A program made the position numbers and the translations under genes. This document shows, one piece after another, positions 19,257 to 63,484 of a stretch of 64,000 nucleotides of DNA; the stretch's first letter is position 1, and each line of letters opens with the position of its first letter. The notes under the pieces were generated by a model. That model saw nothing but the letters and a program-made list of their open reading frames with translations. It made no database searches and had not been told where the DNA came from. The DNA is from an uncultured Gammaproteobacteria bacterium (GTDB taxonomy: Bacteria; Pseudomonadota; Gammaproteobacteria; Eutrophobiales; Eutrophobiaceae): positions 806,001 through 870,000 of the forward strand of contig OY282354.1 of the NCBI GenBank assembly GCA_958295485.1. Reading direction: 5' to 3'.

Positions 19257-21431
19257 TCAGTGCAGGGGGGTTCCATGGTCGGCTAACAATAATAATTCTA
19301 CTCCTTCGTCCACCAAGTCGCCGGCGGAGTAATGCAGTGACTGAACCACGCCGTCATGGGGCGCGGTAATGGCATGTTCCATCTTCATGGCTTCGAGTAT
19401 CAACAGGGCATCGCCTTGTTTTACTTGTTGCCCCTGTGTTGCCATTACTTCGATAATCCTGCCTGGCATGGGTGACATGAGATTGCCGGTTGCTTGTCCG
19501 TCATCCGCGTGGTCGGAATCGGAAATAATATCGAGTCGGTGGGTACTGCCGGCGTGAAACAGTGTCAGTTGTTGGTCGTTTTTAATGATTGTGACGTGTA
19601 GCCGCTCGTTGTCAAGGGTTGCCGTCAGTTGGTTGTCCTGGTCAAGGCGTCCGGCGGCGCGAATTAGTTGGTCGTCGGTCTGGATCAGGTATTTACTCCG
19701 GCAAGGGAGGCTTAGGGGGTTATCATGGCAAGGTGTCATAAATTCCCCCTTACCCAGGTTCTCTCCTTCCAGGGGGGAGGGAGTGGTGGGATGTCCCTCG
19801 TTGATACCCAGGCTCTCTCCTTCCGGGGGAGAGGGGGTGGTGGCGTTGGAGAGTTCTTTGCGTGAAGGAGGCGCTGGGGTGATCTTGATTTCATGCTCCC
19901 TGGTTCCATCATGGAAGCGGAAGCGTTCTTCGGTGACCAGGTTGGGTTGCCAGTTGTCCGTCAAATGCCAGGGGGAGGTCGGGTCGGGGGAAGTCGCGGC
20001 ATAATCGGCGGCTGATTTTTCCCGTTCGAGGACCTGGTGCAGCGCGGCTAAACCGAGAATGTCAATATTCACTGCGCCTGGAAACAGGTCGGCTTGGCGG
20101 CGTTCGATAAAACCCGTATCGAAGTCAGCTGATTGGAATGCTTCGTGCGAGATGATCGAGGCAAGAAAGTTTATATTGGTAATCACTCCCGCCACCTGTG
20201 TTTGACCCAGGGCCTCGCGCATACGCCGTAAACAGTTCGTGCGGTCACTGCCCCAGGCGATCAGCTTTGCGATCATCGGGTCATAGTGAATGGTGATGGA
20301 GTCCCCCTGTCTGACCCCGGCATCCACTCGTATGTGGGTCGAGTCGTTCGGAAAGCGCAGGTGGTTTAACCGGCCGATTGAGGGGAGAAAATGATTGCCG
20401 GGGTCTTCCGCGTAAATGCGCGCTTCCAATGCGTGGCCGTTGATGGAGAGCTGTTCCTGGGTCGCGGGGAGGCTCTCGCCGGCGGCGACCAATAATTGCC
20501 ACTCGACCAGGTCTTGACCGGTGATTAATTCGGTCACCGGGTGTTCGACTTGCAGGCGGGTATTCATTTCCATGAAATAGAACGCGCCGTCTTCGGCGAC
20601 GATGAACTCAACCGTGCCGGCGCCCGCATAATCGATGGCCCTGGCTGCGGCGATGGCGGTCTTGCCCATTGTTGCGCGTTTTTCATTATCCAGGCCGGGC
20701 GCCGGCGCCTCTTCCAGCACTTTCTGGTGGCGCCGTTGAATCGAGCAATCCCGTTCAAACAGGTGTACCGCATTACCGTGGTTATCGCAAAATATCTGGA
20801 TTTCCATATGGCGGGGCTTGCCTATATATTTCTCTATCAACACGTTGTCATCATTAAACGAGGACAGCGCTTCCCGCTTGGCGGCCTGGAGCGCATCGTT
20901 GAAGGCCTTTGCGCTCTCTACCGCGCGCATGCCTTTGCCACCGCCGCCGGCGGTTGCCTTGATCATGACGGGGAAGCCGATTTTCTCCGCCTCTTTTAAC
21001 AGCAACCGCGCAGCCTGATCAGCGCCGTGATAACCGGGGACAACGGGGACCCCGGCCTTTTGCATGAGGGACTTGGCGGCGCTCTTTGAGCCCATGGCCT
21101 CGATTGCTCCGGCCGGCGGGCCGATGAAGACAATGCCGTCGTCAGCGCAGGCCCGGGCAAATCCGGCGTTTTCCGAAAGGAAGCCGTAGCCGGGATGAAT
21201 GGCCTCGGCATTGGCGCGTTTCGCGACGGCCACCAACTTTTCTGCGTCAAGGTAGCTGTCCCTGGCCGGCGCGGGGCCTATGGCAAAGGCTTCGTCGGCC
21301 ATGGAGACGTGTTGCGCCCCGGCGTCGGCTGCCGAATAAACCGCAACGGTTTTAATGCCCAGTCGTTTTGCGGTACGGATGACGCGACAGGCGATTTCGC
21401 CGCGATTGGCTACCAGGATTTTGTTAAACAT
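19257..21431 (-). CDS. liuD: Biotin-containing acyl-CoA carboxylase alpha subunit (methylcrotonyl-CoA type)
   Basis: A 724-residue protein starting MFNKILVANRGEIACRVIRTA: biotin carboxylase N-domain, ATP-grasp with GGGGKGMR near residue 163, HMEIQIFCD, and the C-domain motif EMNTRLQVEHPVTE near 285. The C-terminal biotinyl domain has the acceptor lysine K683 in EAMKMEH. In liu operons this subunit carboxylates biotin for the 3-methylcrotonyl-CoA carboxylase of leucine breakdown. It is 13 bp downstream of liuC. Unusually, residues about 529-564, between the carboxylase and biotinyl parts, consist of two copies of the T-T-P-S-P-x-E-G-E block made by an in-frame palindromic insertion (see the separate repeat entry). 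The start was placed after 28 codons of upstream open frame because of the family N-terminus. Confidence 0.92.
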   Translation of the reverse strand: MFNKILVANRGEIACRVIRTAKRLGIKTVAVYSAADAGAQHVSMADEAFAIGPAPARDSYLDAEKLVAVAKRANAEAIHPGYGFLSENAGFARACADDGIVFIGPPAGAIEAMGSKSAAKSLMQKAGVPVVPGYHGADQAARLLLKEAEKIGFPVMIKATAGGGGKGMRAVESAKAFNDALQAAKREALSSFNDDNVLIEKYIGKPRHMEIQIFCDNHGNAVHLFERDCSIQRRHQKVLEEAPAPGLDNEKRATMGKTAIAAARAIDYAGAGTVEFIVAEDGAFYFMEMNTRLQVEHPVTELITGQDLVEWQLLVAAGESLPATQEQLSINGHALEARIYAEDPGNHFLPSIGRLNHLRFPNDSTHIRVDAGVRQGDSITIHYDPMIAKLIAWGSDRTNCLRRMREALGQTQVAGVITNINFLASIISHEAFQSADFDTGFIERRQADLFPGAVNIDILGLAALHQVLEREKSAADYAATSPDPTSPWHLTDNWQPNLVTEERFRFHDGTREHEIKITPAPPSRKELSNATTPSPPEGESLGINEGHPTTPSPLEGENLGKGEFMTPCHDNPLSLPCRSKYLIQTDDQLIRAAGRLDQDNQLTATLDNERLHVTIIKNDQQLTLFHAGSTHRLDIISDSDHADDGQATGNLMSPMPGRIIEVMATQGQQVKQGDALLILEAMKMEHAITAPHDGVVQSLHYSAGDLVDEGVELLLLADHGTPLH
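19741..19845. repeat. In-frame CTCTCC/GGAGAG palindromic insertion in liuD
   Basis: Two palindromic blocks (ggttctctccttccaggggg and ggctctctccttccggggga, each continuing into gagg or gaggg) sit inside the coding sequence, encoding TTPSPLEGEN and TTPSPPEGES. The frame is preserved. Related blocks lie in recB (about 55397) and recD (58466-58488). Confidence 0.85.
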
Positions 21432-29323: not shown

Positions 29324-29381
29324 TAAACCTGCTCTTTCCGCTAAATCTGCTCTCGCCCGTAAGGCGAGGCATTCTTGTCAT
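29307..29381 (-). pseudogene. hicA: HicA toxin stump interrupted by REP
   Basis: ATG at 29379-29381, overlapping the hicB stop, starts MTRMPRLTGE, the conserved first residues of HicA proteins. The frame then passes directly into RFSGKSRF and the REP arm and stops. Only about ten residues of HicA remain. Resemblance is short, so the call leans on position relative to HicB. Confidence 0.45.
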
Positions 29382-34560: not shown

Positions 34561-35268
34561 AATCCGCCAACCAGGCCTGTCCCTGCGTGTCGCAAGCAGG
34601 GGCTTCTGGAAGCTCGCGCCGCCGCTGGTTGGCCCGGCGTCCTCGAAGAAACGCTCCAGCGCGCCAAGGGGCTTCAGGGCGCTCGCGCCGCCGCTGCTGG
34701 TTGGCCCGGCGTCCTCGAAGAAACGCTCCAGCGCGCCAGGGGGGCTTCAGGGCGCTCGCGCCGCCGCTGGTTGGCCCGGCGTCCTCAAAGAAACGCTCCA
34801 GCGCGCCGGGGGCTTCAGGGCGCTCGCGCCGCCGCTGGTTGGCCCGGCGTCCTCGAAGAAACGCTCCAGCGCGCCAGGGGGCTTCAGGGCGCTCGCGCCG
34901 CCGCTGGTTGGCCCGGCGTCCTCGAAGAAACGCTCCAGCGCGCCCGGGGGGCTTCAGGGCGCTCGCGCCGCCGCTGGTTGGCCCGGCGTCCTCGAAGAAA
35001 CGCTCCAGCGCGCCCGAGGGGCTTCAGGGCGCTCGCGCCGCCGCTGGTTGGCCCGGCGTCCTCGAAGAAACGCTCCAGCGCGCCAGGGGGCTTCGGGGCG
35101 CTCGCGCCGCCGCTGGTTGGCCCGGCGTCCTCGAAGAAACGCTCCAGCGCGCCAGGGGGCTTCAGGGCGCTCGCGCCGCCGCTGGTTGGCCCGGCGTCCT
35201 CGAAGAAACGCTCCAGCGCGCCCGGGGGGCTTCGGGAAGCTCGCGCCGCCGGCGCTGGTTGGCTGATT
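34561..35268. repeat. Array B: about 70-bp tandem repeat in an inverted-repeat frame
   Basis: About ten copies of a unit with gcttcagggcgctcgcgccg and ctggttggcccggcgtcctc, plus aagaaacgctccagcgcgcc, spaced by 68-73 bp. The ends are aatccgccaaccag (34561-34574) and ctggttggctgatt (35255-35268), an inverted repeat matching at 13 of 14 positions. Reading frames through the array (A-R-R-P-R-R-N-A-P-A-R) are open but are repeat artefacts. The left end also carries a 29-nt element shared with 40532-40560. Confidence 0.9.
34575..34603. repeat. 29-nt dispersed element, copy 1
   Basis: GCCTGTCCCTGCGTGTCGCA plus AGCAGGGGC. It matches 40532-40560 at 26 of 29 positions and can fold CCTGC/GCAGG. Confidence 0.75.
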
Positions 35269-36275: not shown

Positions 36276-36654
36276 GTTCCCGCTAACGGTAAACTGTCCT
36301 CAAGTCTCCGCGAGGATACAGTAAACTGTCCTCAAGTCTCCGCGAGGATACAGTAAACTGTCCTCAAGTCTCCGCGAGGATACAGTAAACTGTCCCCAAG
36401 TCTCCGCGAGGATACAGTAAACTGTCCCCAAGTCTCCGCGAGGATACAGTAAACTGTCCTCAAGTCTCCGCGAGGATACAGTAAACTGTCCTCAAGTCTC
36501 CGCGAGGATACAGTAAGCTGTCCCCAAGTCTCCGCGAGGATACAGTAAACTGTCCTCAAGTCTCCGCGAGGATACAGTAAACTGTCCCCAAGTCTCCGCG
36601 AGGATACAGTAAACTGTCCCCAAGTCTCCGCGAGGATAAGGAATTAGCGGGAAC
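36276..36654. repeat. Array C: 32-bp tandem repeat in an inverted-repeat frame
   Basis: Eleven exact-period 32-bp units (caagtctccgcgaggataca plus gtaaactgtcct) fill about 36291-36640; only T/C variation (cctcaag versus ccccaag) and one g separate them. Each unit contains the perfect 12-bp palindrome ACAGTAAACTGT. The frame is gttcccgctaa (36276-36286) and ttagcgggaac (36644-36654), a perfect 11-bp inverted repeat. There are no spacers, so this is not a CRISPR array. Confidence 0.92.
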
Positions 36655-43675: not shown

Positions 43676-44385
43676 GTGTGAGGTCAGAACGTCTCTTCGG
43701 GGCGAGGGGGGGCGGAGATGAAGGTGAACACTGGCTGACTATCTCCGACCTGATGGCCGGCCTGATGATGGTTTTTCTGTTCATCTCCATTACACTGATG
43801 CGTAGCGCATTCATTGAGCGCGACAAGATCAAGGACATAGCGGTGGCGTATCGCGAAGGACAGGTTGCAATCAACGAGGCGTTGTGGGAGGAGTTCGCAG
43901 ACGACCTGGAGAGATGGGAAGCGGTGATTGACAGTGAGAACCTGTCTTTCGAGTTCAAGTCGCCGGAAGTGCTGTTTCAGGCAGGGGAGATTGACCTGCA
44001 ACCGCGCTTCGTGGAGATTCTCAATGACTTCTTTCCCCGGTACTTGGCGGTGCTCAAGAGATTCGAGGCGGCCATCAATGAAGTGCGCATTGAAGGACAT
44101 ACCTCCAGCGACTGGGTCACAGCTGCCGGGGAAGATGAGGCGTACTTCAAGAACATGTGGCTGTCCCAGGGACGAACCCGCGCGGTGCTGGAGTACGTCT
44201 ACAATCTTCCTGTAGTCGCCGAAGACAAACGATGGGTGAAGGCCAACGTGGCCGCGGTGGGCTTCTCATCTTCCCGCCTCGTCCTTGACAGGGCGGGGAT
44301 GGAAGACCGGGACGCCTCGCGCCGTGTGTTGTTTCGTGTCTTTACGAACGCGGAAACCCAAATCCGTAAAATCCTGACGGAGTAA
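43672..44385 (+). CDS. zorB: ZorB: MotB-like peptidoglycan-binding subunit (Zorya)
   Basis: A 237-residue protein with one N-terminal membrane helix preceded by HWLTISDLMAGLMMVFLFIS (the aspartate in ISD is the ion-conducting residue equivalent to MotB Asp32) and a C-terminal OmpA-like domain (VEILNDFFPRYLAV, VRIEGHTSSDW, WLSQGRTRAVLEYV, FSSSRLVLDRA). ZorA5B2-type complexes use this module to anchor to peptidoglycan. Starts in the 3' end of zorA with ATGA overlap. With ZorE downstream it defines type II Zorya. Confidence 0.9.
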   Translation: MSVRSERLFGARGGGDEGEHWLTISDLMAGLMMVFLFISITLMRSAFIERDKIKDIAVAYREGQVAINEALWEEFADDLERWEAVIDSENLSFEFKSPEVLFQAGEIDLQPRFVEILNDFFPRYLAVLKRFEAAINEVRIEGHTSSDWVTAAGEDEAYFKNMWLSQGRTRAVLEYVYNLPVVAEDKRWVKANVAAVGFSSSRLVLDRAGMEDRDASRRVLFRVFTNAETQIRKILTE

Positions 44386-44393
44386 AACGCGCC

Positions 44394-45518
44394 GTGCCCC
44401 TCAATGTAGATATCTCAGGCCTGCGCGAGGCGGTGTGCCGCATGGGCGCGGAGTCTGTGGATGTCGGTACCATTGTTAACTTGACGACTACTCCGTCTCT
44501 CCCCATTGATATTGAACTGGGTACAGGAATTAAGGTCGACCTATCCGAGGTTAAGACAGACAATGGGTTATTGAGCTATCAGGGCCGTCAGATTCTGCTC
44601 TATATCCAAGACCACGGAGACCGCATCCAGGAAGTGTTGGAGAACGAGGACGAAGGAAATAAGTTCCATATTGCCTATTGCCGGACCTTGGAAGATATGC
44701 AATCTCAAGGGCGATTCGAGCGGTATGTAGCGACTAACGATTTAACCGGAAATTTCTTTATTACAGGGTTTGATGGGGGAAATGGAGCGGAAAGAGAGGG
44801 TGGCGCCTACCTCAAAGTCTGCAAGAATTGTCTTACAAAGCTGAACTACCAAGGCTATTATGATAAACATGAGGCCAGATTCCAGATATTTACAGATTTC
44901 GACCTGGAAAAATTCTTCTGCGCCTACAGTTCGTTCTTCCCACACATGCCCAGCCGCCGCGCCGGCGCGTTCGATGGGCAGTACACCCAGGACTGGCGGG
45001 AAATAGCGATGCTTTACAAGGAGAGCAAGAACTTTATCTGCGAGGGCTGTGGCGTAAGGTTGGAAGACCACCGGCGCCTCCTCCACGTGCATCACATCAA
45101 TGGAGTCAAGACAGATAACCGTCAGCAGAATCTGAAGGCACTCTGTGCTGACTGCCACCGCAGGCAGCCTCGTCATGGGCACATGTACGCTTCTCACGAA
45201 GATATGAAGCAGATTACTGCCTTACGTCGGCAACAAAACCTGATCAATCTGAATAGTTGGGAGGATGTTTTCAAGTTTGCAGACCCTGGCGTGCATGGTG
45301 TACTTCACCATCTTCAGCATCACCACCCTGAGCTTCCTGAAATCGGATATGAGGTAAAAAATGACGGAGGAGCGGTCGTTGCGGAGCTGGAACTGGCTTG
45401 GCCTTCCCGATCGTGGGGAATCGCCATCTTGCCGGCAGATATTAAAAAAGCGGAGACAGCCGGCTGGCGCGTAACACCTGTGCATGAAGCGGTGGACATG
45501 CAGGCTACATTATTATAA
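44394..45518 (+). CDS. zorE: ZorE: HNH nuclease effector of type II Zorya
   Basis: A 374-residue protein with GTG start at 44394, eight bases after zorB. The C-terminal part has an HNH nuclease: C-E-G-C-G near residue 220, LLHVHHINGVKTDNRQQNLK (the catalytic HH and N) and C-A-D-C-H-R-R-Q-P. The N-terminal half (NVDISGLREAVCRMGAESVD onwards) and C-terminal FKFADPGVHGVLHHLQHHHPELPE are as in Zorya-associated HNH proteins. Type II Zorya consists of ZorA, ZorB and ZorE. ZorE would cut phage DNA when the motor signals; nicking versus double cutting is not settled from sequence. Confidence 0.85.
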   Translation: MPLNVDISGLREAVCRMGAESVDVGTIVNLTTTPSLPIDIELGTGIKVDLSEVKTDNGLLSYQGRQILLYIQDHGDRIQEVLENEDEGNKFHIAYCRTLEDMQSQGRFERYVATNDLTGNFFITGFDGGNGAEREGGAYLKVCKNCLTKLNYQGYYDKHEARFQIFTDFDLEKFFCAYSSFFPHMPSRRAGAFDGQYTQDWREIAMLYKESKNFICEGCGVRLEDHRRLLHVHHINGVKTDNRQQNLKALCADCHRRQPRHGHMYASHEDMKQITALRRQQNLINLNSWEDVFKFADPGVHGVLHHLQHHHPELPEIGYEVKNDGGAVVAELELAWPSRSWGIAILPADIKKAETAGWRVTPVHEAVDMQATLL

Positions 45519-46673: not shown

Positions 46674-47369
46674 ATGCGAAGCGGCATGACACAAACTAAC
46701 GGGTCTCCGGAATTCCCGGGGCAGTTCAACACGTTTTTCGCTACAGAAAACTCAGAAGAGCTACTTAAAAGGGTCGCGGACTTGATCACTATCACAAGAG
46801 AAAATATTGTTGTTGACTTCTTTTCTGGTTCTGGCACTACTCAGTCTGTAGCTCAGAAGCTAGGGCGCAAGTGGCTTGGCGTAGAAATGGGAGCGCATTT
46901 TTACACTGTAATTTTGCCTCGCATGAAGAAGGTCATTGGTGGCCATCAATCTGGGATAAGCAAACAGATAGAATATAAGGGTGGTGGCGCGTTCAAATAT
47001 TACTCGCTGGAACAATACGAAGAAACCCTGAAAAACGCCTGCTACAATGAGGACGGCAAACATTTGAAGATAGACAGTGCCAAATCCCCATTCGAGCAGT
47101 ACGTCTTCTGCAACGACGACAAATTCGCCTACGCTGTTAAACCCTTAGAGAACGGCAAACTGGAAATCAATCTGCACAACCTCTATCCCGATATAGACAT
47201 CGCCGAATCGCTTTCAAACATTCTCGGCAAACCCATCCGCTGCCGCACTGCCGAGTCCGTCACCTTCGTCGACGGCACCACCGAAAAGATCAACCCCGCC
47301 AAAATGACTGAAGCGGAGAAACAACACTTCATCACAATTCTAAAACTCTATTTGTGGTGGGGAGAATAA
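46674..47369 (+). pseudogene. DNA methyltransferase C-terminal part (type III Mod-like), N-terminus lost
   Basis: The frame carries GQFNTFFATENSEELLKRVA, then the beta-class motif VVDFFSGSGTTQSVAQKLGR (F-x-G-x-G) and WLGVEMGAHFYTVILPRM, and a long C-terminal tail ending QHFITILKLYLWWGE. This matches the Mod subunit of type III restriction-modification or a related site-specific methyltransferase. The N-terminal half with the D/NPPY catalytic motif is absent, replaced by the IS fragment. The downstream gene starts by TAATG overlap. Confidence 0.7.
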
Positions 47370-49526: not shown

Positions 49527-49589
49527 GGTGGAAAAAGTAGTGGACATCTTCGGTAACGACGCCATGACGATCGTGGGGGTGAATGTATG
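49527..49589 (+). other. Relic of a conserved upstream gene end (VDIFGNDAMTIVGVNV)
   Basis: VDIFGNDAMTIVGVNV and TGA, overlapping the ATG of the DarT-DarG gene by GTATGA. Homologous to 45541-45590 over roughly 60 nt. Confidence 0.6.
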
Positions 49590-50744
49590 AAACAGCCAAC
49601 AGAGCTATATTACATTTGCCATATTGATAACCTTGAATCCATTCTGGAAAAAGGCATATGTTCGCGCAAAGATGCTGAAAAACTTGATCATGAAGATATT
49701 CACGATCGAGAAGTATTAGCGCGACGCAATAAACAATTACCGAATAGTAAAAACGTATCCGAGTGTGTGAATTTATATTTTCATGCACGTAATGCCATGC
49801 TTTATCGATTGACTTGTAACATAGACAGGAAGAAATTAGTCGTTTTGCAAGTCTCTTCTTCCGTGCTTGATCAGGAGGATGTCTGTTTTAGTGATCGAAA
49901 CGTAGCCGCCTTTAATGCCCGATTTTTTTCTGGAACCACGGAACTGAAAAATATCGACGCTTCTGTTTTCAAAAAAGAATATTGGACAGATAGCGATGAT
50001 ACCAAGCAAAAAATGATGGCAGAAGTATTGGTTCCGGACAGGATATTGCCTGATAAGATTATTGGCATTTACTCCAGCATTAAAAACGACGCGCTTGCCG
50101 ACATCGTCGGAGACAAGCAGGTTCCGATTTCGGTAGAGCCTTATATGTTTTTTGCGCCTCAATATAGAAAATCTTTAAACAATACTATTTTCCTCTCCAA
50201 AGGCGACATGTTCTTTTCGACTATGCAAACATTTACTATTAGTGTAAACACCAGGGGTATCATGGGAAAAGGATTGGCTTCACGCACCAAGTATCAATTC
50301 CCCGATGCTTATGTTCGCTATCAAGACGATTGCAAAAACAAAAAACTGAAAATCGGCAAGCCAACCCTGTATAAGCGCGCCACCCGAATTGAGGAAGAGC
50401 TGGCTGATGATGCAGCACAACTCAAACAAGACAATTTGAATGGCTCGCGCTGGTTTTTATTTTTTCCGACAAAGCGACACTGGCGAGAAGATTCCAGACT
50501 TGATGACATAGAGAAATCTATGCAGTGGCTTGTGCAAAACTATAAAAAAGAAAACATAGAATCAATTGCCTTGCCGGCGTTGGGGTGCGGACTGGGGAAC
50601 CTGCATTGGAAGGATGTGGGACCTGTGATGTGCCACTACCTGAAACAAATGGACATAAAGTCATGTATTTATCTTCCCATGGATCAGCAATTGCCTGAAG
50701 ACCTCCTGTCTGAAAATTACTTATTAAATAGTTATGATGTTTAG
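49587..50744 (+). CDS. DarT-DarG fusion: DNA ADP-ribosyltransferase plus macrodomain
   Basis: A 385-residue protein. Residues 1 to about 195 match the DUF4433/DarT fold: YYICHIDNLESILEKGI (H12), HDREVLARRNKQLP (basic motif) and the catalytic glutamate E146 in MAEVLVP. DarT attaches ADP-ribose to thymidine bases in ssDNA. Residues about 205-385 are a macrodomain of DarG type: FTISVNTRGIMGKGLASRT, LFFPTKRHWREDSRLDDIEKS and SIALPALGCGLGNLHWKD (ADP-ribose site). DarG removes the modification and neutralises DarT. In the known darTG systems the two are separate, overlapping genes; here they are one frame with no stop. Both parts look intact. It sits at the edge of the defence island, next to recC. 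Confidence 0.85.
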   Translation: MKQPTELYYICHIDNLESILEKGICSRKDAEKLDHEDIHDREVLARRNKQLPNSKNVSECVNLYFHARNAMLYRLTCNIDRKKLVVLQVSSSVLDQEDVCFSDRNVAAFNARFFSGTTELKNIDASVFKKEYWTDSDDTKQKMMAEVLVPDRILPDKIIGIYSSIKNDALADIVGDKQVPISVEPYMFFAPQYRKSLNNTIFLSKGDMFFSTMQTFTISVNTRGIMGKGLASRTKYQFPDAYVRYQDDCKNKKLKIGKPTLYKRATRIEEELADDAAQLKQDNLNGSRWFLFFPTKRHWREDSRLDDIEKSMQWLVQNYKKENIESIALPALGCGLGNLHWKDVGPVMCHYLKQMDIKSCIYLPMDQQLPEDLLSENYLLNSYDV

Positions 50745-50865: not shown

Positions 50866-53800
50866 GTGCTTAACCTGTTCCAGTCGAACCGGATGCCTGT
50901 CCTGGCGAAGATCTTCTGTGTCAGGAACGATGAGCCGGGCGACCCCTTCACCCCTTTGTCCGTGATTATGCAGAACCGCGAGTTGGGGCAGTGGTTGAAG
51001 TTCAGCCTGGCACGGGAATACGGCATTTCCGCTAACGTGGATTGTTGTTTCCTGGCCGCTTTTTTTTGGGAGTTGTACAAACGATTGCCGGCGGTACAGG
51101 CGGTGGCGGAGGAGTCGCCCTTCGACAGCGCCCGCCTGGTCTGGCGCATCATGGCCCTGCTGCGGAAGGAAAAGATCGATGATCGGGCGTTACGCAACTA
51201 CCTGGATCAACCGGGGGACTCCAGCCTGCGGCATTACCAGCTGAGTTACGAAATCGCCGAGTTGTTCAACCAATACCTGATATACCGGCCTGAGTGGATG
51301 TTGCAATGGGAATCCGGCGGGGATGACCCCGCGCCGGCGCCGCTTCGATGGCAGCCGGAATTGTGGCGGGCGTTGTTGGCGGACATGGGGAAATACGGCG
51401 GACTGCACCGCGCCAGGCTTCACCGCATGTTGCTGGAACAACTGACGGCCGGCGAATATCCCGTGCAATCCCTGCCGCCGCGGATTTCTGTATTTGGCCT
51501 GTCCGCCATGCCGGCGATGCAACTCCAGACCCTGCAAGCGCTGGCCGGGCATATTGAAGTCGATATCTACTTCCTCAATCCCTGCCGTCATTACTGGGGG
51601 GACATCGCCTCCGACAAGGAGCAGGCCCGCCGCTCCATGCGCGCCCTGTTGGGCGGCAAGACCGAACTGGTCGACGATGACTACCTGGAAGCGGGCAACC
51701 CCATATTGGCTTCCCTGGGCAAGCAGGGGCGCGAGTATTTCGAGATGCTGCTGGATATGGATATGCCCCTGCTGCAAACCGCCGAGCAATTCCCGGAGCA
51801 CGAGGGGGCCACCGCCCTGGAGCGGGTAAAAAACGATGTCCTGGAATTGACTTTCGGCGGCGAATTCGGCAGCGGCGCGGTACCGGAACCCCGACCGCCG
51901 CCGGACGAGGACAGCCTGCAAATACACGCGTGTCACAGTCCACTCCGGGAAATCGAAGTCTTGCACGACGAGCTCCTGCGCCTCATGGCTAACCGGAAAG
52001 ACCTGTCTCCCGGAGAGATATTGGTCATGGCGCCGGACATTGCCGGGTATGCGCCGTTCATCCATTCGGTGTTCGGCGATGGCATCCCGTTCAGTATTGC
52101 CGACCGCGGCGTCATGGAAGAGTCGCCACTGATCAACGGTTTTCTTGCCCTGTTGAAGCTGCCGGAATCCCGTTTCACCGGCGCTGAAGTGGTGGATTTG
52201 CTGGATACCCCGGCCATTGCCAGGCGCTACGGGCTATCGGCGGAGGACCTCAGGCAGGTCACCCTGTGGATTCGGGATACGGGCGTGCGCTGGGAGTTGG
52301 GCGGCGCGGACAAGGAAAAATACTGGCAGGTTCCACCGGAAGGGCACAATACCTGGGAGTTCGGACTGGACCGGCTGTTGTCAGGCTTCGCCATGACGGA
52401 CGAAAACACCTGGGATGGCCTCTTGCCCTGCCCGGCAACGACGGAAGACGCCCGCCTGATCGCCAGCCTTTCCCACTTTGTCGAGTTGCTGGGTAAATAC
52501 CGGGACGAATTGTCGGAGCAACGCCCGCCGGCGGCTTGGCGGAAGTTGCTGTCCCGACTGGTGGCGGATTTTTTTCTGCCGGTAGATGAGGAAGCGCTGG
52601 AATTCGACTGTTTGCAGACGCTTATCAAGGAATTCGGCAACGCCACCCATGCCGGCGGCTGTGAGGAAAACCTTTCTTACGTACTGATGCGCCACTGGAC
52701 ACAGCAGCAGCTCAGGGGCGTCTTCACCCGGAACAGGTCTCCGTACGGCGTAGTCCAGTTCGCCAACCTGTCCGCCGTGCGCGGCATCCCCCGGCGGGTC
52801 ATCTGCCTGTTGGGTCTGAATGACGGCGAGTATCCCAGGGAAGAACGACCCCATTCCTTCGACTTGATGTCGCTCCGAAACAACGACTATCGCAAGGGAG
52901 ACCTGTCCGCACGGCAGGACGACCGTTACCTGTTTTTAGAATCCCTGCTGTCCGCCGAAGAAGTCTTCTACCTGAGCTACGTCGGGCGAGGGGTGCGGGA
53001 CAACCAGGAGAAACCGCCTTCAGTGGTGGTGACCGAGTGGTTGCATTACCTGCAAGCCTTGTTCGGCGAGGAAAACATCAAGCCGGTGGCGCATTCGCTT
53101 CAGCCTTTCAACCCCCGTTACTACCAGGGAGACCGGCTGCAATCCCGGCAGTCTCCCTGGTACGACGCCCTTGCAAATAAACCCGCGCAGTCGCCGGTTT
53201 TCTGCAGGGACCCTCTCCCGGCGGCGGCATGTGACTCCCTGGACCAGCTGGAAAGATTTTTCAGTCATAGCGGCAAGTATTTCTTGCAGCAAAGACTCAA
53301 GGTTTATTTCAATGTGGATGAAATCGAGCTAAAGGATACGGAGAGCTTTGCGCTGGATGCCCTCGAAGCCTATCAGTTGGCGGATGACGCCCTGGATCAT
53401 CTCATCCGGGGTGATTCCCTGGAAGCCTGGCGGGAAAGGCAGCTTGCCGCGGGCGTGGTCTTGCCGGGCGCCGCCGGCCGGGCGCAATCAGGCGTCCACA
53501 TCGACCGCGCCGAAGCCGTCCATGCCGCGCTGAAAGGGACTCTCGCCAAGGGCCGGCGACCCCCGCAAAGCGGCGTCATTGAGCTTGACGGCGCTGCCAT
53601 TCAATACCGGTTCGATGAGATTTACGGGGATACTCACCTGTTCTACCGGGTGGGCAGCCTCAGGCGCAAGGACCTGCTCATGGCTTGGTTGCGACACCTG
53701 GCGTTGAGCGCCACCGGCGGCGATTCGGTGGAGATGCGGATGGTTGGAAGAAAAGACAGCGGCGGTAAAACCGGGGCCGAAGTACGTTGTTTCGCCCCGC

Positions 53801-54195
53801 TGGATGCGGGATTATCCCGGCAATATCTTGGCGAGCTGCTAAAGCTGTATCGCCTCGGCACGGCGCGACCCCTGCTGTTGCCCCCCGAAACTTCATACGC
53901 CTACTACGAAAACTACGTTAAAACCGAAGCTGTCGGGAAAGCCGGGAGCGCTGACCCATCTTTCCCGGCTGAACAACACATTGAAACCGAGGCTGCCGGG
54001 AAAGCGAAGGAAGCGGCGGTCAACAAATGGAACTCATCGTATGGGGGCGCGCCGGAGGGTGATGACATCTACTGGGCCCGCCTGTTTTCCCTGCCTGAAG
54101 CGCTGGGTGGGAAAGAGCGGGCAGAGGAATTTCATGCCCATGCGATCAGACTGTGGCAACCCCTGTGTGAGCGTCTGGTGGAGAATGACGAGTGA
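50866..54195 (+). CDS. recC: RecC subunit of exodeoxyribonuclease V
   Basis: A 1109-residue RecC. Start GTG 50866 is taken from the family N-terminus (LNLFQSNRMPVLAKIF); no good ribosome site is visible. SVIMQNRELGQWLKFSLARE, PATFFWE-like and RVICLLGLNDGEYPREERPH, FDLMS are RecC-typical, as is the C-terminal end before recB. RecC holds the pieces of the RecBCD complex and recognises Chi. It overlaps recB by 4 bp. It follows the DarT-DarG gene by about 120 bp with no other gene. Confidence 0.92.
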   Translation: MLNLFQSNRMPVLAKIFCVRNDEPGDPFTPLSVIMQNRELGQWLKFSLAREYGISANVDCCFLAAFFWELYKRLPAVQAVAEESPFDSARLVWRIMALLRKEKIDDRALRNYLDQPGDSSLRHYQLSYEIAELFNQYLIYRPEWMLQWESGGDDPAPAPLRWQPELWRALLADMGKYGGLHRARLHRMLLEQLTAGEYPVQSLPPRISVFGLSAMPAMQLQTLQALAGHIEVDIYFLNPCRHYWGDIASDKEQARRSMRALLGGKTELVDDDYLEAGNPILASLGKQGREYFEMLLDMDMPLLQTAEQFPEHEGATALERVKNDVLELTFGGEFGSGAVPEPRPPPDEDSLQIHACHSPLREIEVLHDELLRLMANRKDLSPGEILVMAPDIAGYAPFIHSVFGDGIPFSIADRGVMEESPLINGFLALLKLPESRFTGAEVVDLLDTPAIARRYGLSAEDLRQVTLWIRDTGVRWELGGADKEKYWQVPPEGHNTWEFGLDRLLSGFAMTDENTWDGLLPCPATTEDARLIASLSHFVELLGKYRDELSEQRPPAAWRKLLSRLVADFFLPVDEEALEFDCLQTLIKEFGNATHAGGCEENLSYVLMRHWTQQQLRGVFTRNRSPYGVVQFANLSAVRGIPRRVICLLGLNDGEYPREERPHSFDLMSLRNNDYRKGDLSARQDDRYLFLESLLSAEEVFYLSYVGRGVRDNQEKPPSVVVTEWLHYLQALFGEENIKPVAHSLQPFNPRYYQGDRLQSRQSPWYDALANKPAQSPVFCRDPLPAAACDSLDQLERFFSHSGKYFLQQRLKVYFNVDEIELKDTESFALDALEAYQLADDALDHLIRGDSLEAWRERQLAAGVVLPGAAGRAQSGVHIDRAEAVHAALKGTLAKGRRPPQSGVIELDGAAIQYRFDEIYGDTHLFYRVGSLRRKDLLMAWLRHLALSATGGDSVEMRMVGRKDSGGKTGAEVRCFAPLDAGLSRQYLGELLKLYRLGTARPLLLPPETSYAYYENYVKTEAVGKAGSADPSFPAEQHIETEAAGKAKEAAVNKWNSSYGGAPEGDDIYWARLFSLPEALGGKERAEEFHAHAIRLWQPLCERLVENDE

Positions 54196-57100
54196 GCGAT
54201 CTTGATGCCATGCCCCTGAACTGCCACCAGCTTATCGAGGCCAGCGCGGGCACGGGAAAGACCCACACTATCACCAATTTATACCTCCGGTTGCTGCTGG
54301 GCCGCGCTACCGGGTTGCCTCCCCTTGCCGTCAATAAAATCCTGGTGTTGACCTTCACCAACGCGGCGGCGGATGAATTGAGACGCCGAATCAGAAACAG
54401 GATTCACCAGGCCCGGCTGATCTTTCGACAGGATACAGGCCCGGAAGACGATTTCCTGGCCAGGCTGGTGGGAGACAGTCTCGATAAGAACAAGGACGGA
54501 AAACTGCTTGAGGCAGCCAGCCGGTTGATGGATGAGGCCAGCATCTTCACCATCCATGGTTTCTGCTACAAGGTGCTGACCGAACAATCCTTCGACGCCG
54601 GCAGTCTGTTCCGGCAGGAACTGTACGATGACCGGGAACAATTATTCCGGCAAGCCTGCGCCGATTTTTTCCGCAGCCACCTGACGACGCTTCCTGAAAT
54701 CGAGAAGCAATTAGCCGGTAAACTCTGGTCGCGGCCTGAGGCGCTTGCCACCTGCCTGCGACCATACGTATACAGGAGAGAACTCAAACTGACCCCGGCC
54801 AGGGCCGTCGACGTTGAAGCCGTCAACCTGAAAAAAGACAGTGAGGCCCTGCTGGCGGATATCCGGGAAGCCAAGCGCGGCTGGGTCAAAGACGACATCG
54901 CCAGGTTGCTGGAATCCGCAGACCTGAAAAAAGGGAGTAAACCAATCACCCGGTTGCAACAAATGACCGACCTCTGCCAGGGCGATGACCTGGGGCTGGA
55001 TAGCGAACTGTGGGAAGTCTATAACAGGGACAGCCTGGAAAGAGCCAGGAAAAAGGATTGTGCCCTGCCTACTCACCCCCTGTTTAGCTTGCTCAACAGG
55101 ATCTGGTCGAAGCAGCCAATCATCGAAAAGCTCAGGGAAAACCTCTGGCACGTGGTCCTGGAGGAAGTAAGGGCAAGAATCCGAACCATCAAGGAACGCC
55201 GGCGCTTGTTGACCCTGGATGATTTGCTGTTGAATGTGCGTGACGCCATCCGGCGCTCAGGCTCTCCTTCGGAACCCTCTGCCTTGGCGGAACTGCTGGC
55301 GCAACGCTGGCCGGTCGCCATGATCGACGAGTTTCAGGACACGGACGATATCCAGTACGAAATCTTCTCCCGCATCTACCGGACCGATTTCCCCCACCCC
55401 GACTCTCCCCCAGGGGGCGAGGGGACAGCCCATGGGGCAAAGGATGAGGTAGGGGACAGGGCAAAGGATGAGGCAGGGGGCCGGGCAAAGGACGAGGCAG
55501 GGGGCTGGGCAAAGGACGATGCAGGGGACAGGGCAAAGGATGAGGCAGGGGACAGGGCAAAGGATGAGGCAGGGGACAGGGCAAAAGATGAGGCAGGGGG
55601 CCGGGTAAAGGACGATGCAGGGGGCGGGGCAAAAGGCGGCGACCGGGGGCTGCTGATGATAGGCGACCCCAAGCAAGCCATCTACCAGTTTCGCGGGGCC
55701 GATGTATATACCTACATCAAGGCAAGGCGCGCCGTCGATCGCATCCATTCACTGGAGAAAAACTGGCGTTCCACCCCGGCGCTGGTGGAAGCGGTCAATA
55801 CATTGTTTGATAAACAAGGCATGTTCAGCGTTGGCGAGGAGATTCCCTTTGCGCCCGTAGAGGCAGCCCACGCGGACCGGCAGGTGACTATCGACGGCGA
55901 AGAGGTCGCGCCCTTCGAGTTATTCGTTGTCGGCCACGCCGGTACAGGACTCGACAAGGATGCGGCGGGGGCCTCGACCCTGGCAGAGCCGTCGCCGGAA
56001 CCACCGCCGAAGCCGAGGGCGCTCAGCAAGGATGCGGCAAGGGCCTTGGCTATGGAGTATGCCGCCGAGCAGACGTCGCGGTTGCTCAACGCCGGGGATA
56101 AGGTGCGGCTTGGCGGCAAGGATGACAATGACAACTCCCTGAAAGCGGGTGAGATCGCTTTCCTTGTCAAGACCTGGAAGGATGCCGCCCAGGTGCACAA
56201 GGCCCTGGCCCGGCGCGGCATTCAGGGCGTGTATCTCACCCGTGAAAACGTCCTGCTACAGCCGACCGCGGACGATTTGATCCATATACTCCGGGCGGCG
56301 CTGGACCCTGCCGATGACCGGGCCGTTCGCGCCGCCCTGGCTACCCGCCTGCTGCAATGCGAGGCTGGGGAAATCGAAGCGCTGGGCCATGATCTCCGGA
56401 CCCGGCAGGCCGTGATCCGGGAATTTCAGGAATATCACGAGGCCTGGCGGGACCGGGGGATAGCGTTCATGTTGAATCGCCTGTTGCAAAAGCGGCGGCT
56501 GGCCGGGAAATGGCTGGGGCAAATGACCGGCGAACGGGAACTCACCGACTTCCGCCACCTGACGGAATTATTGCAACAGGGGGCGGGGCTTGCCCCGGGA
56601 ATGCGCCAGTTGCTGAGCTGGTTTATGAGGGAAAGACAGGTCGCCGGCAATATCGATGACGAGCAGCGGCAATTGCGGCTGGAAAGCGACGAAAACCTGG
56701 TGAAAATTGTCACCATGCACTCGGCGAAGGGGCTGGAATACGACGTGGTGATGATTCCCATGCCGGTGTTCAGCGTCCACAAGGTCGCTCCCAAGGGGCC
56801 GGCGCTTTATCACGACCCGGAGGAGAATTATCGGGCCTGTCTGGAAGTGGGCGCTGATCAGTCTCACTTGGCGCGCGCCGCAGAAGAGAAGATCGACGAG
56901 GAAATCCGCCTCCTTTACGTGGCGATGACCCGGGCGAGATACCGCTGTTATCTCGGCGTTCCCTTAATCCGGGGCCTGGAAAAAACCACCTTCGGGCGAC
57001 TGCTGGGCGCCTTTCCTGACTCCCCCCTCCCCATAAAAGAATTTGTCGAACAGCTGCGACTTCCCGCGGACTTGTTCAACATCGTTGACGGCGAGGTAGC

Positions 57101-58061
57101 GGACTGTACCCCTTATAAGCCTGAGGCCGGGGTGCAGGACCTGGTTCCGCCCCCGCCTGTCCCCCGAACAGACCAGCGTTGGCGGCTGCACAGCTACTCC
57201 AGCCTGTCAGCCCGGCCGCGGGACCTGGAGCGGAAAACCGCGAGCGATGCCATCGCTGGCTTTGCCGACGACGACCAGGGTCGGGGTGACGGCGACGGCA
57301 TCGGCGAAAGAGATGATTCGACGACTGCCGCGGCGGAGTTCTCCCGCTTCAGTTTCCCCCGTGGGGCGCACGTCGGGCTGGTCCTGCACAAGCTGCTGGA
57401 AGACCTTGACCGCGTGACGTCCCCGGAGGGCCATAGCCGGGACCGGGCCTGCAACTTCGCGCTGGACAAGTTGGGCCTGGGGCAAAACCGCGGGGAATGG
57501 GGCAGGGTGTTGACGGGCTGGCTGGACGACATCCTGAAGACGCCGCTTCACCCCGCCGCCACTTCCCTGGAGCGCATCGAGAGCCATGACCGCCTTAACG
57601 AGATGGAGTTTCATTTTCCGGTGAACAACCCCGCCTTCGTGGTTGACGGGCTGCGGGAGGCTGGCTACCTGGAAAGCCTTCAGCTCGACCCGGACTTTCA
57701 GCTGGTGGGCATGATGACCGGATTGATCGACCTGACGTTCCGTCACGATGGCAAGTATTATGTCCTGGACTACAAGTCCAACCACCTGGGAGACTCGTTC
57801 GGTGATTACGGCGAAGCGCAACTCCGGCAGGCGATTGCCAGGCATCACTACGATCTCCAGTACCTGATCTACAGCATGGCCTTGCACAAGTGGCTCAAGG
57901 CCCGTTCCCATGGCTATGATTACGAGCGGGACTTCGGCGGTGTCTTCTACCTGTTCCTGCGCGGCATGAGAGGCAGCGAAACAGGGGACACGGGCGTTTA
58001 TTTTCACAAGCCGCCACTGGCCGCCATCGAAAAATTAAGCGAATTGTCGGGGACGCCATGA
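54192..58061 (+). CDS. recB: RecB subunit of exodeoxyribonuclease V, with an insertion
   Basis: A 1289-residue RecB with GTG start overlapping the recC stop. Walker [13 protein letters not shown] (K23), motif [22 protein letters not shown] near residue 377, motif [23 protein letters not shown] near 488, [19 protein letters not shown] near 838, and the C-terminal nuclease motif [20 protein letters not shown] near 1178. This is the helicase plus nuclease chain of RecBCD that repairs double-strand breaks and degrades foreign DNA. Between motifs II and III, where E. coli RecB has about 10 residues, this protein carries about 85 extra residues (400-483), made of a palindromic block and an eightfold A-K-D-E-A-G-D-R repeat. 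Confidence 0.92.
55393..55640 (+). repeat. In-frame palindrome plus 24-bp tandem repeat inserted in recB
   Basis: Begins with the ctctcccccagggggcgagg block (S-P-P-G-G-E-G) and continues with about eight copies of gggcaaaggatgaggcaggg plus gaca, an exact 24-bp unit that codes for AKDEAGDR and variants. It ends at G-D-R-G-L-L-M before motif III. All copies are in frame. Confidence 0.92.
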
Positions 58062-59869
58062 ATACCGCCAACATCCCATCCATCGGTCACTACCTGGCTA
58101 ACCTGCTGGCCCGTCATGGTGACCCGATCAATGACGATGTTCGCCGTCTGCTGGATAAACTCTGTGACTCGGTCCTGCGCCAACATAGCTGTCTCGATCT
58201 CTCCGCAATGCCGGAAGAAACGGCGCGCCGGCTCAAGTCCCTCGCCTGCGTCGGCGACGGCGACGACAATACGCCGCTCGTGCTGTACGGCGAGCGCCTG
58301 TACCTGCAACGCTACTTTGCCTGGGAAAAAAGCGTGGCCGCCATGCTGTCGGAACGGAACCGCCCGCAAGCCTGTGACCACCCGGAACGACTGGGGGAAG
58401 AATTAGACCTGCTGTTCCCGCCGGGGAGTGAAAGGAACGCCGCCGCGCGTCACCAGGTGGAGACCCCCTCTCCCCCGGAGGGAGAGGGACAGGGCGGTGG
58501 AAACGGCATCGACTGGCAGCGGGTCGCGGCCCTGCAAGCCCTCACCCGGCGACTGCTCATCATTACCGGGGGGCCGGGCACCGGCAAGACCCGAACCGTC
58601 GTGAAGATCATCGCCCTGTTGTTGGCGCTCTCGGCCCATGAACCCGTTATCCGCCTCGCCGCGCCCACCGGCAAGGCCGCCATGCGGTTGAAGGATTCCA
58701 TACGGGAAGGAATATCAGACCTGCCGAAATCTTTTTCGGCGCTTGCCGACCAGGTATCCACCCTGCACCGCCTGCTGGGGATGCGGTCCGACGGCAGAAG
58801 CTGGCGTCATGACGCCGACAACCCCATTGACGCGGATGTGCTGATTGTCGATGAGGCGTCCATGATCGACCTGCCCCTGGCTCACCGGACGCTTAGCGCC
58901 TTGCCCCCGGACTCCAGGCTCATCCTGCTGGGTGACGCCGACCAACTGCCATCGGTTGACGTAGGCAACGTGCTGGCCGACCTTTGCAGCGGGACCATTG
59001 GTTATTCAGGGGAATTCGTCGAATTCGCCCGTAAATTTGTGCACGGCGACCTGCCTGTCGTGGAAAACAAACACAAGCTAATGGACGCGGTGTGCCGTTT
59101 TGAGCGCAACTACCGCTTCGCGCCTGACAGCGGCATCGGTCGTCTCGCGCGGGAAATCAGGGCGGGGACGGCATCTTTCGAGGTATCTTCCGGGCCGGAC
59201 GATGCCAGCGTGCGTTACCTGGATTTGGCCGGTCTGCGGGCCGGGAACCCGGCGGAACGACTCATCGCTTTTTTTGACGACTATATCCGATTGCTTGAGA
59301 CGGACGAAAAGCCCGATGTCCCGGAATTGCTGAAAGTGTTCGGGCAGACCCGCATTCTCTGCGCCCGCCGGGAAGGATTCGCTGGCGTTATCAACGTCAA
59401 CCGGGTGCTGGAGGCAATCCTTGAGCAACGAGGCTTGAAGCGGCAGGGACAGGACTTCTATACCGGCCGGCCCGTCATGATCACCCGCAACGACTATAAC
59501 CTGGAGTTGTTCAACGGCGACATAGGGATTTGCGTACCCGGAACAGACGGCGGGTTTCTGGTCGCCTTCCCGGACGCGCGGGGAGGCATCAAATACGAGC
59601 TCGCCCTGCGCCTGGCTCACCAGGAGACCTGTTTCGCCATGACCGTCCACAAGTCCCAGGGTTCCGAGTTCGACCACCTGGTATTGCTGCTGGACGAATC
59701 CCCGGAATCCTTCCCGGAACAACTGCAAACGCGGGCGCTGCTTTACACGGCGGCCACCCGCGCCAAAAACCGGATCACCATCTACGGCAACGGTGACATC
59801 TGGCGGCGGGCGCTGGAAAACACCAGCGCCCGCATGAGCGGACTGCAAACCTTCGTTAAAAGCAACTGA
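58058..59869 (+). CDS. recD: RecD subunit of exodeoxyribonuclease V
   Basis: A 603-residue SF1B helicase. ATG 58058 overlaps the recB stop. Walker A ITGGPGTGKTRTVVKI near residues 168-183, IVDEASMIDLPLAH near 263, LILLGDADQLPSVDVGNVLA near 288, and the terminal MTVHKSQGSEFDHLVLLL and YTAATRAKNRITIYG motifs are complete. An extra block of about 17 residues (ETPSPPEGEGQGGGNG near 135-150) arises from a palindromic insertion. It completes the recC-recB-recD operon. RecD drives the fast 5' to 3' strand. Confidence 0.92.
   Translation: MNTANIPSIGHYLANLLARHGDPINDDVRRLLDKLCDSVLRQHSCLDLSAMPEETARRLKSLACVGDGDDNTPLVLYGERLYLQRYFAWEKSVAAMLSERNRPQACDHPERLGEELDLLFPPGSERNAAARHQVETPSPPEGEGQGGGNGIDWQRVAALQALTRRLLIITGGPGTGKTRTVVKIIALLLALSAHEPVIRLAAPTGKAAMRLKDSIREGISDLPKSFSALADQVSTLHRLLGMRSDGRSWRHDADNPIDADVLIVDEASMIDLPLAHRTLSALPPDSRLILLGDADQLPSVDVGNVLADLCSGTIGYSGEFVEFARKFVHGDLPVVENKHKLMDAVCRFERNYRFAPDSGIGRLAREIRAGTASFEVSSGPDDASVRYLDLAGLRAGNPAERLIAFFDDYIRLLETDEKPDVPELLKVFGQTRILCARREGFAGVINVNRVLEAILEQRGLKRQGQDFYTGRPVMITRNDYNLELFNGDIGICVPGTDGGFLVAFPDARGGIKYELALRLAHQETCFAMTVHKSQGSEFDHLVLLLDESPESFPEQLQTRALLYTAATRAKNRITIYGNGDIWRRALENTSARMSGLQTFVKSN
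58466..58488. repeat. In-frame CCCTCTCCC/GGGAGAGGG palindrome in recD
   Basis: ccctctcccccggagggaga followed by ggg, a near-perfect dyad, encodes P-S-P-P-E-G-E-G. It is the third occurrence of the in-gene palindrome (with liuD and recB). Confidence 0.85.
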
Positions 59870-60921: not shown

Positions 60922-60958
60922 CCGCTACCGTTACGGACAGCAAATGGAAAGGACATCG

Positions 60959-63484
60959 ATGAATGGAGAACCGGTAAATATCTATCACGGCGCATTTCGA
61001 CCGCACGAGGGGTTCGTGTTGTCGTATACGGGATCATTGATCGGCGCCCTGGAAATAGACGGCATTGACCCTGACGGGATGTCGCAAAAAGACATGGAAG
61101 CGTTTGCCATCGTCATAAGAAACCTGCTGAATATCCTGCCCCAGTCAATCATCCTGCAGGAATACTACATCCACTACAGCGACCTCCGGGTTTCATTCGC
61201 CAGGAGAACAAACCCGGTGTGCAATACCTTGAATGAATACCGTTCAAGGCATTTGAACAATATGCGCCTGTCCGGCGCAAGGTGCATGTTGTTCGTCGAG
61301 CTATACGGGGATAACCGGGGCAAATCCAGCTTGTCATTGTTTATCCGCCACCTGCTGAGATATTTTCAAAGCGCAACCTCCAGGGAATACGTCAAGCGGT
61401 TCATTGCCTATGGACAGACCCAGGCCGCCTCTAGGGCCGCCTTGAAAAAATCGGCAGCGGAATTGGAGACGAAGCTCAAGGACATTATCAATTACTGCGG
61501 CGGTTTGTTTAATACCCGTCGGCTCGATATCGATGAGACTTACCGGGTGATGAAATTCCTGGCGACGATGGATGTGAAATACCTGCATTCCAACTTGAAA
61601 TGCCCTGATCCTATCGATACGGATTTATCGGACGGACAGGTGGCGCCCGTGACGAGCAACGGCATGGATTTGTTAAGGCTGTATAACCTCAACAATACCT
61701 ATCTTCGGGTCATGTCGGTGAAACAATTCAATTTTAATCGCTTTACTCCAGGGCTTTTTGCAAAAGGCGCCGGCGCCCCCATTAAAACCAGGGGCAATTA
61801 TGTGCTGACGACCCGTTACAAGGGAATGAGTGAAGCGTCGAAGTCCTTGTTCTTTTTCAACCGGAAAAAGGAGCTGGAAAGGGAAACCATTACGTTTACG
61901 GACTTTATCAAGGGACTTGACAGCGGCATGGAAAAGGATCGGGAAATGCAGGTCTTTCAACCGTCGTTGATCAGGAAATTCCAGGAACTGGACGAAGCCT
62001 CGTCGTTGAATGACAACCTGGGCCTGGTATCCACCCACGTTATCGTATTCGATACGGACCTTGAGGAGTTGGAGGGAACGACGGAACGGCTGCAATCCGC
62101 CTTGCAACAGAATCAGCTCAGCATCCTGTGGGAAACGGTGGGCCAGGTTGACGTGTTTTTTGACATACAGCCTTGCGCCGACCACCGCAGCAGATTTTTC
62201 CGGGACATTCCCTTGAACACCTCGCAATTTTCCACCCTGTCCCTGTTTTTCAAATCCGCGCAAGGCTCGATGGTCATCGAAGACCTGAACAAGGAAGAGG
62301 CGCAATATGTTTTCCTGTCATCGGATGATACGCCGTATTATTTTTCGCCCTTCACCGGCGGTCGCGGCTTTTTGATCGGCGTCGGGCCAATCCGTAGCGG
62401 GAAATCCTTTTTACGCACCTGCATAGGCATTCATTGGCCCAAATACGGTGGCTTCTACCGGGCTATCGACATCGATCCCGGTTCCGAACCAATCGCCCAT
62501 GCCTATGGCGAGGACGCCGGCATTGTTCGTTTCGATGGCGTTAATGACCGGGGGTTCAATTTTTTCTCCCAAGCCCGGTCGAGTGAAGACGCCCACTTCA
62601 TAACGCACTTGATCCAACAACTCGCGGCGATGATCAACAGTAATGATTCGGAGGAATTGCGGCGCCTGTCGGCCGCGGATCAATTGGCCCTGGACCGGGC
62701 GGTGGGGCAGGCGCTAAGGCTGCCGAAACACCTGCAAACCCTGACGACGTTGAGCAAACACTGCCCGAAACAAATACAGCATAAACTGGCCCGGTTTACC
62801 GGCGATGGCCCTTATGCCCGCTTGTTCGATGCGAAAGAAGATGCCATAGGCGCTATCGACAAGAAGATCGCGATCTACAATTTAATGGGTATCAGCGACG
62901 ACGTGGTCGCAAAGCCGCTGGTAATGGCCGAGATAGCCTACCGGGTGCTGCGCTTCTACGAAAACCCGGCGTACCGGACGTATCCCAAGTGGTTGGACGT
63001 GGATGAATGCCACCACATTTTAGCCAACCCTGAGTTGGCGAAGATGCTGCTGCTGGACCGGATACGCCTCTGGGGAAAGTTGTCGGCTGGTATCGGGATG
63101 TGGACGCAATCCGGCATCGAATTGGGCGGCGTCGAGAACTGGGAGGCGATTCGAAGCGCCGCATCGACCTTTATATTTACTTCCGACCCCGAGCTGAACA
63201 GGGATGCCTACAAATCTATTTTCAATATGAAAGACGGCGAAATAGAGGCTGTCAGGGGATTAATCCCGAAGAAAGAATTTTATCTCATTCAGCGCGACCT
63301 GAACGTCTCGAAAAAATGTATTTTGTCCGTCGAGCCGGAGCAGTACGTGCTGTCAACGTCCAGGCCGGCGGAGCAATCGTTATATTTTGCCAACGTTGAA
63401 CGGTTTGGCTTTGCCGCCGGAGTCAGGAAAACAATGGCGGCGCTCGATTTGAAGGGAGGGAGTATCGATGAAAAAGCGGCTTAG
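60959..63484 (+). CDS. virB4: VirB4/TrbE-like T4SS ATPase
   Basis: About 841 residues from ATG 60959 (AAGGA site six bases upstream; an earlier in-frame ATG at 60944 lacks one). VirB4-family features: FVLSYTGSLIGALEIDGIDP near the start, the N-terminal CagE/TrbE domain, the Walker A LIGVGPIRSGKSFLRT near residue 475, and the Walker B YPKWLDVDECHHIL near 677, then TSDPELNRDAYKS and the C-terminal FYLIQRDL. It is the largest T4SS ATPase, which powers pilus assembly and substrate transfer. The 3' end overlaps virB5 by 17 bp. Confidence 0.88.
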   Translation: MNGEPVNIYHGAFRPHEGFVLSYTGSLIGALEIDGIDPDGMSQKDMEAFAIVIRNLLNILPQSIILQEYYIHYSDLRVSFARRTNPVCNTLNEYRSRHLNNMRLSGARCMLFVELYGDNRGKSSLSLFIRHLLRYFQSATSREYVKRFIAYGQTQAASRAALKKSAAELETKLKDIINYCGGLFNTRRLDIDETYRVMKFLATMDVKYLHSNLKCPDPIDTDLSDGQVAPVTSNGMDLLRLYNLNNTYLRVMSVKQFNFNRFTPGLFAKGAGAPIKTRGNYVLTTRYKGMSEASKSLFFFNRKKELERETITFTDFIKGLDSGMEKDREMQVFQPSLIRKFQELDEASSLNDNLGLVSTHVIVFDTDLEELEGTTERLQSALQQNQLSILWETVGQVDVFFDIQPCADHRSRFFRDIPLNTSQFSTLSLFFKSAQGSMVIEDLNKEEAQYVFLSSDDTPYYFSPFTGGRGFLIGVGPIRSGKSFLRTCIGIHWPKYGGFYRAIDIDPGSEPIAHAYGEDAGIVRFDGVNDRGFNFFSQARSSEDAHFITHLIQQLAAMINSNDSEELRRLSAADQLALDRAVGQALRLPKHLQTLTTLSKHCPKQIQHKLARFTGDGPYARLFDAKEDAIGAIDKKIAIYNLMGISDDVVAKPLVMAEIAYRVLRFYENPAYRTYPKWLDVDECHHILANPELAKMLLLDRIRLWGKLSAGIGMWTQSGIELGGVENWEAIRSAASTFIFTSDPELNRDAYKSIFNMKDGEIEAVRGLIPKKEFYLIQRDLNVSKKCILSVEPEQYVLSTSRPAEQSLYFANVERFGFAAGVRKTMAALDLKGGSIDEKAA

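Follow-up and report, generated by a model that had tools for sequence, protein, structure and literature searches.

The RecB protein of an uncultured gammaproteobacterium of the family Eutrophobiaceae carries a long, strongly charged insert between helicase motifs II and III. This insert is probably a palindromic repeat joined to a minisatellite that grew by slippage, and it appears to be tolerated in a permissive surface loop of the protein. Surface repeat DNA that the host puts up with, and not a new working part of the enzyme, is the most likely explanation because the loops of other bacteria have gained unrelated repeats. The gene lies in a stretch of 64,000 nucleotides (contig OY282354.1 of assembly GCA_958295485.1, positions 806,001 to 870,000), which is referred to here as the window and whose numbering is used throughout (Table 1).

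The insert and its gene

In the window, recB is flanked directly by its partners in the order recC-recB-recD. The RecB frame scores 856.6 bits in a profile search against TIGR00609, for which the curated cut-off is 696.05, and its translation contains LDYKSN at residue 1192, which we take to be the nuclease motif of RecB. Helicase motifs II and III are both intact around the insert, and on the forward strand across it only the RecB frame is free of stops, the other two holding two and five. An intact frame and perfect motifs are what the original prediction had described. No other copy of recB was found in the host genome, and with the frame intact in the sole recB found there, it is plausible that RecB is made as a protein with its insert.

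Table 1. Features of the recBCD region and of the dispersed palindromic core, in window coordinates
Feature	Position	Strand	Basis
recC, partner 5' of recB	50866..54195	+	TIGR01450, 830.7 bits
recB, GTG start, 1289 aa, carries the insert	54192..58061	+	TIGR00609; match to E. coli RecB 1w36_B
recD, partner 3' of recB	58058..59869	+	TIGR01447, 438.7 bits
Motif II DEFQDT, residues 379-384	55326..55343	+	translation
Motif II-III loop, 106 residues (mode elsewhere 23)	55344..55661	+	translation and loop survey
Inserted stretch, residues 398-484, 87 aa against 4 in E. coli RecB	55383..55643	+	phmmer alignment to 1w36_B
Imperfect palindrome CTCTCCCCCAGGGGGCGAG, at most 3 mismatches from the 19-bp dispersed core	55403..55421	+	core pattern search
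24-bp tandem array, 8.3 copies, codes AKDEAGDR	55435..55633	+	Tandem Repeats Finder
Motif III GDPKQAIY, residues 491-498	55662..55685	+	translation
Palindromic core in recD, within an addition of about 24 residues (PSPPEGEGQGGG) that precedes the motor domain	58468..58486	+	
Palindromic core, in frame, in a methylcrotonyl-CoA carboxylase alpha-type gene (TTPSPPEGESLG)	19815..19833	-	
Second palindromic core, in frame, in the same gene (TTPSPLEGENLG)	19761..19779	-	

Compared to the most common length elsewhere, the loop has a net excess of 83 residues, in good agreement with the 85-residue insertion that had been predicted between the two motifs. The insert is made of a weak palindrome and a 24-bp tandem array, both in frame, and 24 of its 87 residues are D or E and 15 are K or R. 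The array shows 89% matches (Tandem Repeats Finder score 286), and its size likewise agrees with the roughly eight copies of an AKDEAGDR unit expected from the first reading; AKDEAGDR is indeed the translation of the consensus. Seven copies lie within three mismatches of the consensus, where dinucleotide shuffles lead one to expect none. An ungapped search for a source of the 24-bp unit elsewhere in the window returned the array alone, and a search for a second copy of the whole insert in the 3.74-Mb genome found none, the other matches being at chance level (best E = 0.24). A second variable stretch of RecB, at 55939-56075, has two occurrences of AAGGATGCGGC and is similar to the 24-bp unit.

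One could consider the insert an artefact of assembly or copy number, or a sign of a decaying recB, as tandem arrays are error-prone in assembly and this insert is known from one assembly of one strain. However, the 1289-residue open frame with its intact motifs, the ordered way in which the array copies differ, and the length of the contig (3.57 Mb) make such an explanation extremely unlikely.

Among the genomes of the host family, no relative was found with the same insert or with an empty site, and RecB passed the cut-off in one of 53. The RecBCD genes as a whole (50866-59869) look foreign to their family. An AddB-like protein is present in four of seven genomes of the genus and has no match in the host genome, where RecBCD may have replaced AddAB. 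A plasmid search for relatives of RecB yielded nothing useful.

Loop length across RecB proteins

The loop between motifs II and III was surveyed in 175 RecB sequences, comprising 80 from genome contigs, the window, and 94 from a class-wide sample. These 175 stand for 177 loci, as the motif pair was not recognised in L270 and L273; L095-L102 lie outside the survey, and those with a motif pair were measured separately. For the class-wide sample, a match with an E-value of at most 1e-60 was obtained in 142 of 276 genomes, and 96 stretches were read, with most of the weaker, AddA-like rows excluded.

The loop is 23 residues long in 85 of the 175 sequences and 21 to 26 residues long in 142. At least 38 residues are found in 16, namely 8 of the 80 from genome contigs, 7 of the 94 from the class-wide sample, and the window, whose loop is the longest of all. 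In a whole-protein alignment of the same 175 sequences, this loop has more insertions of at least 15 residues than any other site, in 8, 6, and 1 sequences at three adjacent positions, and these counts are not of independent events because RecB sequences are related. Other sites of RecB hold insertions in seven sequences (17 residues at most), in three sequences (up to 41 residues), or in no more than two sequences each (at most 61 residues). The motif II-III loop is thus the main insertion and length-variable site of RecB, a permissive place that has been hit repeatedly.

The same two motifs occur in UvrD, which was used as the control because too few AddA sequences match the motif pattern (7 of 50 loci, with six loops of 26 residues and one of 21). 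The UvrD loop is 21 residues long in all 29 of the readable loops, taken from the 30 best-scoring UvrD proteins (a biased choice), of which 29 gave the motif pair. Inspection by eye of the listed UvrD rows revealed neither split matches nor a large excess of length.

A dispersed palindrome in frame

The palindromic block that had been described beside the array is present, with arms that pair at eight of nine positions around a single base, and it is weak. Its inverted-repeat score of 6 is ordinary for the gene, other stretches of which score 6 to 10, and the whole loop folds less stably than its own shuffles (z = +3.6). A strong palindrome was not found in the RecB loop, the arms being short and the score unexceptional.

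The core to which this palindrome is compared is 19 bp long and dispersed in the host genome, with 14 forward and 10 reverse matches at about 20 places; the reversed pattern, searched as a control, gave 0 and 3. Besides recD and the carboxylase gene in Table 1, genes for an ABC transporter and a sarcosine-oxidase-like protein also contain the core in frame, and the approximately 24 residues around the recD core are absent from other RecD proteins. Ten copies of the core lie within open frames of 400 residues or more, and by a hand count, from which one further copy at the start of a frame was excluded, 8 of these 10 are read in the same frame as in RecB. The RecB copy is degenerate, with three mismatches to the core, and its 33-column alignment to the recD copy was equalled by 5 of 5000 shuffles. 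On the basis of this alignment and the shared frame, the RecB palindrome may be kin to the dispersed repeat. Neither a GTAG nor a CGTC tetranucleotide tag is present beside it. Elsewhere in the window, the protein encoded at 28168-29133 resembles the REP-associated tyrosine transposases (RAYT), below the family cut-off (37.5 bits against NF047646, cut-off 80), and a palindromic match lies nearby at 29350-29368.

The array could also have arisen by slippage of RecB's own sequence alone, in which case the likeness to the dispersed palindrome would be due to chance. Such an origin would suit a palindrome that is weak and unremarkable within recB, a genome in which tandem arrays are widespread, and a short internal repeat like the 24-bp unit at RecB residues 583-598, which score low in the structural model. 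It is nevertheless unlikely, given that the core match shares its orientation and frame with the other genic copies, that so few shuffles reach the alignment with the recD copy, and that other genomes carry palindromic repeats in their RecB loops.

What fills the loop in other species

Several of the RecB loops of at least 38 residues are filled by dispersed palindromic repeats. Two congeners, G288 and G191, have RecB proteins that are 92% identical, and the flanks of their inserts agree at 624 of 654 positions (95%). The G288 insert, a large palindrome, has 94 matches in its genome, and the G191 insert, which is another palindrome, has 61 in its own; when the two are compared with each other, their score does not exceed that of shuffles. 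Near-identical recB genes with different repeats in the loop provide a direct record of the turnover of intragenic repeats. The loops of L010 and L014 hold GC-rich CCCTCTCCC-type palindromes, two further copies of which occur in the stretch read for L014. G221 and G099 have a low-copy hairpin sequence in common in the loop, and the loop of their congener G309 is 24 residues long. Folding energies indicate strong structure (z at or below -5) in 4 of the 16 long loops, and a fifth lies at -3.8; the remaining 11, including that of the window, lack a clear palindrome by this measure. Half of the 16 hold neither a palindrome nor a recognised repeat.

The different inserts between flanks that are 95% identical could also be a mark of diversifying selection, in which repeat insertions are favoured, for example, as an escape from phage proteins that bind RecBCD. 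The recBCD genes of the window adjoin Zorya II and DarT-DarG genes, and, judging from their titles, solved structures of RecBCD with phage inhibitors exist. Yet contact of an inhibitor with the RecB loop is nowhere seen in the present data, the length of 21 to 26 residues is kept by most of the RecB proteins surveyed (142/175), and tolerance is a simpler account of the pattern, all of which leaves selection of this kind highly improbable. Under a broader proposal, mobile palindromic repeats would use the RecB loop as a common landing site throughout the Gammaproteobacteria and would refill it repeatedly, even between sister species, because an altered face of RecBCD is useful, be it against phage inhibitors or for the tuning of recombination. 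We consider this proposal quite unlikely. If the turnover were favoured and not merely tolerated, it would bear on the evolution of RecBCD against phages.

Structure and selection

Residues 1-941 of RecB were modelled with AlphaFold2 from an alignment of 43 sequences, made up of 42 of 66 trimmed relatives and the window. The model has a mean pLDDT of 83, and its first matches are solved RecB chains (six best rows, E 2.8e-55 to 2.5e-51). Residues 402-480 fall below 50 (block pLDDT about 32 to 46) and sit between a helix (386-395) and a strand (486-491). A surface extension had been one of two suggestions for the insert, and it is supported by this stretch, disordered in the model, beside a well-predicted helicase core that matches solved RecB chains.

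The other suggestion was that the repeat could change the coupling between ATP hydrolysis and DNA unwinding. A charged loop that acts in this way, or that binds a partner, might be expected from its position between two helicase motifs, its strong charge, and the intact frame of a recB for which no second copy was found. In RecA-like folds, however, a link of this kind, from the end of a helix to the start of the next strand, is on the sheet edge remote from the ATP site. The eight array copies hold 16 differences from their consensus, of which 10 are non-synonymous and 6 synonymous, and among the 9 distinct changes, 3 are synonymous compared to 3.2 expected, so purifying selection is not detected. 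A coupling or catalytic role was rejected on the grounds that the model leaves the loop disordered, that it varies between species in both sequence and length, and that purifying selection is not evident among the copies; altogether, a functional loop is very unlikely, and the suggestion about coupling finds no support. The charged unit is better explained by tandem duplication in a repeat-rich genome.

A repeat-rich genome

In 400 kb of the host genome there are 53 tandem arrays, compared to 9 in 400 kb from a member of its family, and 16 lie in the 64-kb window. Array periods are divisible by three in 29 of 30 arrays inside open frames versus 12 of 39 elsewhere, a contrast that is partly built in because a stop-free array whose period is divisible by three itself creates an open frame. 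The window includes a 69-bp unit in 9.4 tandem copies (34599-35251), which is GC-rich and outside the listed genes, and a 32-bp unit in 10.9 near-identical tandem copies without spacers (36289-36638). At two other loci, L280 and L290, open frames of 6666 and 3216 residues within the stretches read consist mostly of tandem units of about 340 to 380 bp, and these frames possibly encode giant repeat proteins.

The Zorya type II genes zorA, zorB, and zorE occupy 42041-45518, and zorA contains an in-frame tandem duplication of 129 bp (43139-43402). A methyltransferase fragment follows at 46674-47369. Directly 5' of recC, a single frame of 385 residues (49587-50744) combines the ADP-ribosyltransferase DarT with the macro domain of DarG, which are usually encoded by two genes. 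Together, the Zorya II genes, DarT-DarG, and the methyltransferase fragment look like a defence island. On the other side of the recBCD genes, 3' of recD, lies a VirB4-family ATPase (60944-63484; TIGR00929, 134.6 bits, below the cut-off of 643).

A possible origin of the insert

The likely history of the insert would begin with a short, GC-rich palindromic repeat of the genome that lodged in frame in the RecB loop, between the helix after motif II and the strand before motif III. An adjacent stretch of 24 bp would then have been duplicated in tandem by replication slippage until it numbered about eight copies, the palindrome thus having arrived before the array. Only in-frame changes would survive, which would explain why the unit length is divisible by three and the frame is open. 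The product would be a loop of some 87 residues, charged and disordered, outside the motor domain. RecB would be made with this insert at a nearly neutral effect, and the activity of RecBCD is probably little changed.

The RecB loop shows where a large repair machine is able to absorb tens of residues between catalytic motifs, and it offers a natural site for the insertion of a tag or a domain.

Comparison with known systems

We take PMC3733652 to be the work of Di Nocera and others from 2013. As far as the openly licensed literature goes, no report of a 24-bp array in RecB, or of its loop mapped to motifs II and III, was found. What is already known, from the passages of PMC3733652 drawn on here, is that repeats can lie in frame in recB. 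Added here are the mapping of the site to the helicase motifs, the two congeners with different repeats, and the tandem expansion.

According to those passages, intragenic REP elements occur in recB of Xanthomonas campestris and X. oryzae, in-frame repeats are found in recB and other DNA-repair genes, and the two Xanthomonas recB inserts lie at about the same site (PMC3733652). The host element is like these in being a short palindromic repeat placed in frame in genes, recB included. The Xanthomonas elements differ in that they end in GTAG or CGTC, tags that the host RecB element lacks, and the same passages give the recB site without placing it on the helicase motifs and without a tandem expansion in recB (PMC3733652).

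The Rickettsia palindromic elements (RPE; Ogata 2000, Claverie and Ogata 2003) are also in-frame palindromes in protein genes, whose activity is reportedly kept, as outlined in the part of PMC6649704 used here. In this they resemble the RecB element, and their hosts differ. Intragenic tandem repeats (minisatellites or VNTRs) are described in bacteria such as Legionella in the portion of PMC2639597 consulted. As in RecB, they are tandem units within genes; the RecB array differs in lying in a helicase loop with an adjoining palindrome. Finally, RecB of E. coli (1w36 chain B) has the same fold and the same motifs as the host protein, but four residues in the loop where the host RecB has 87.
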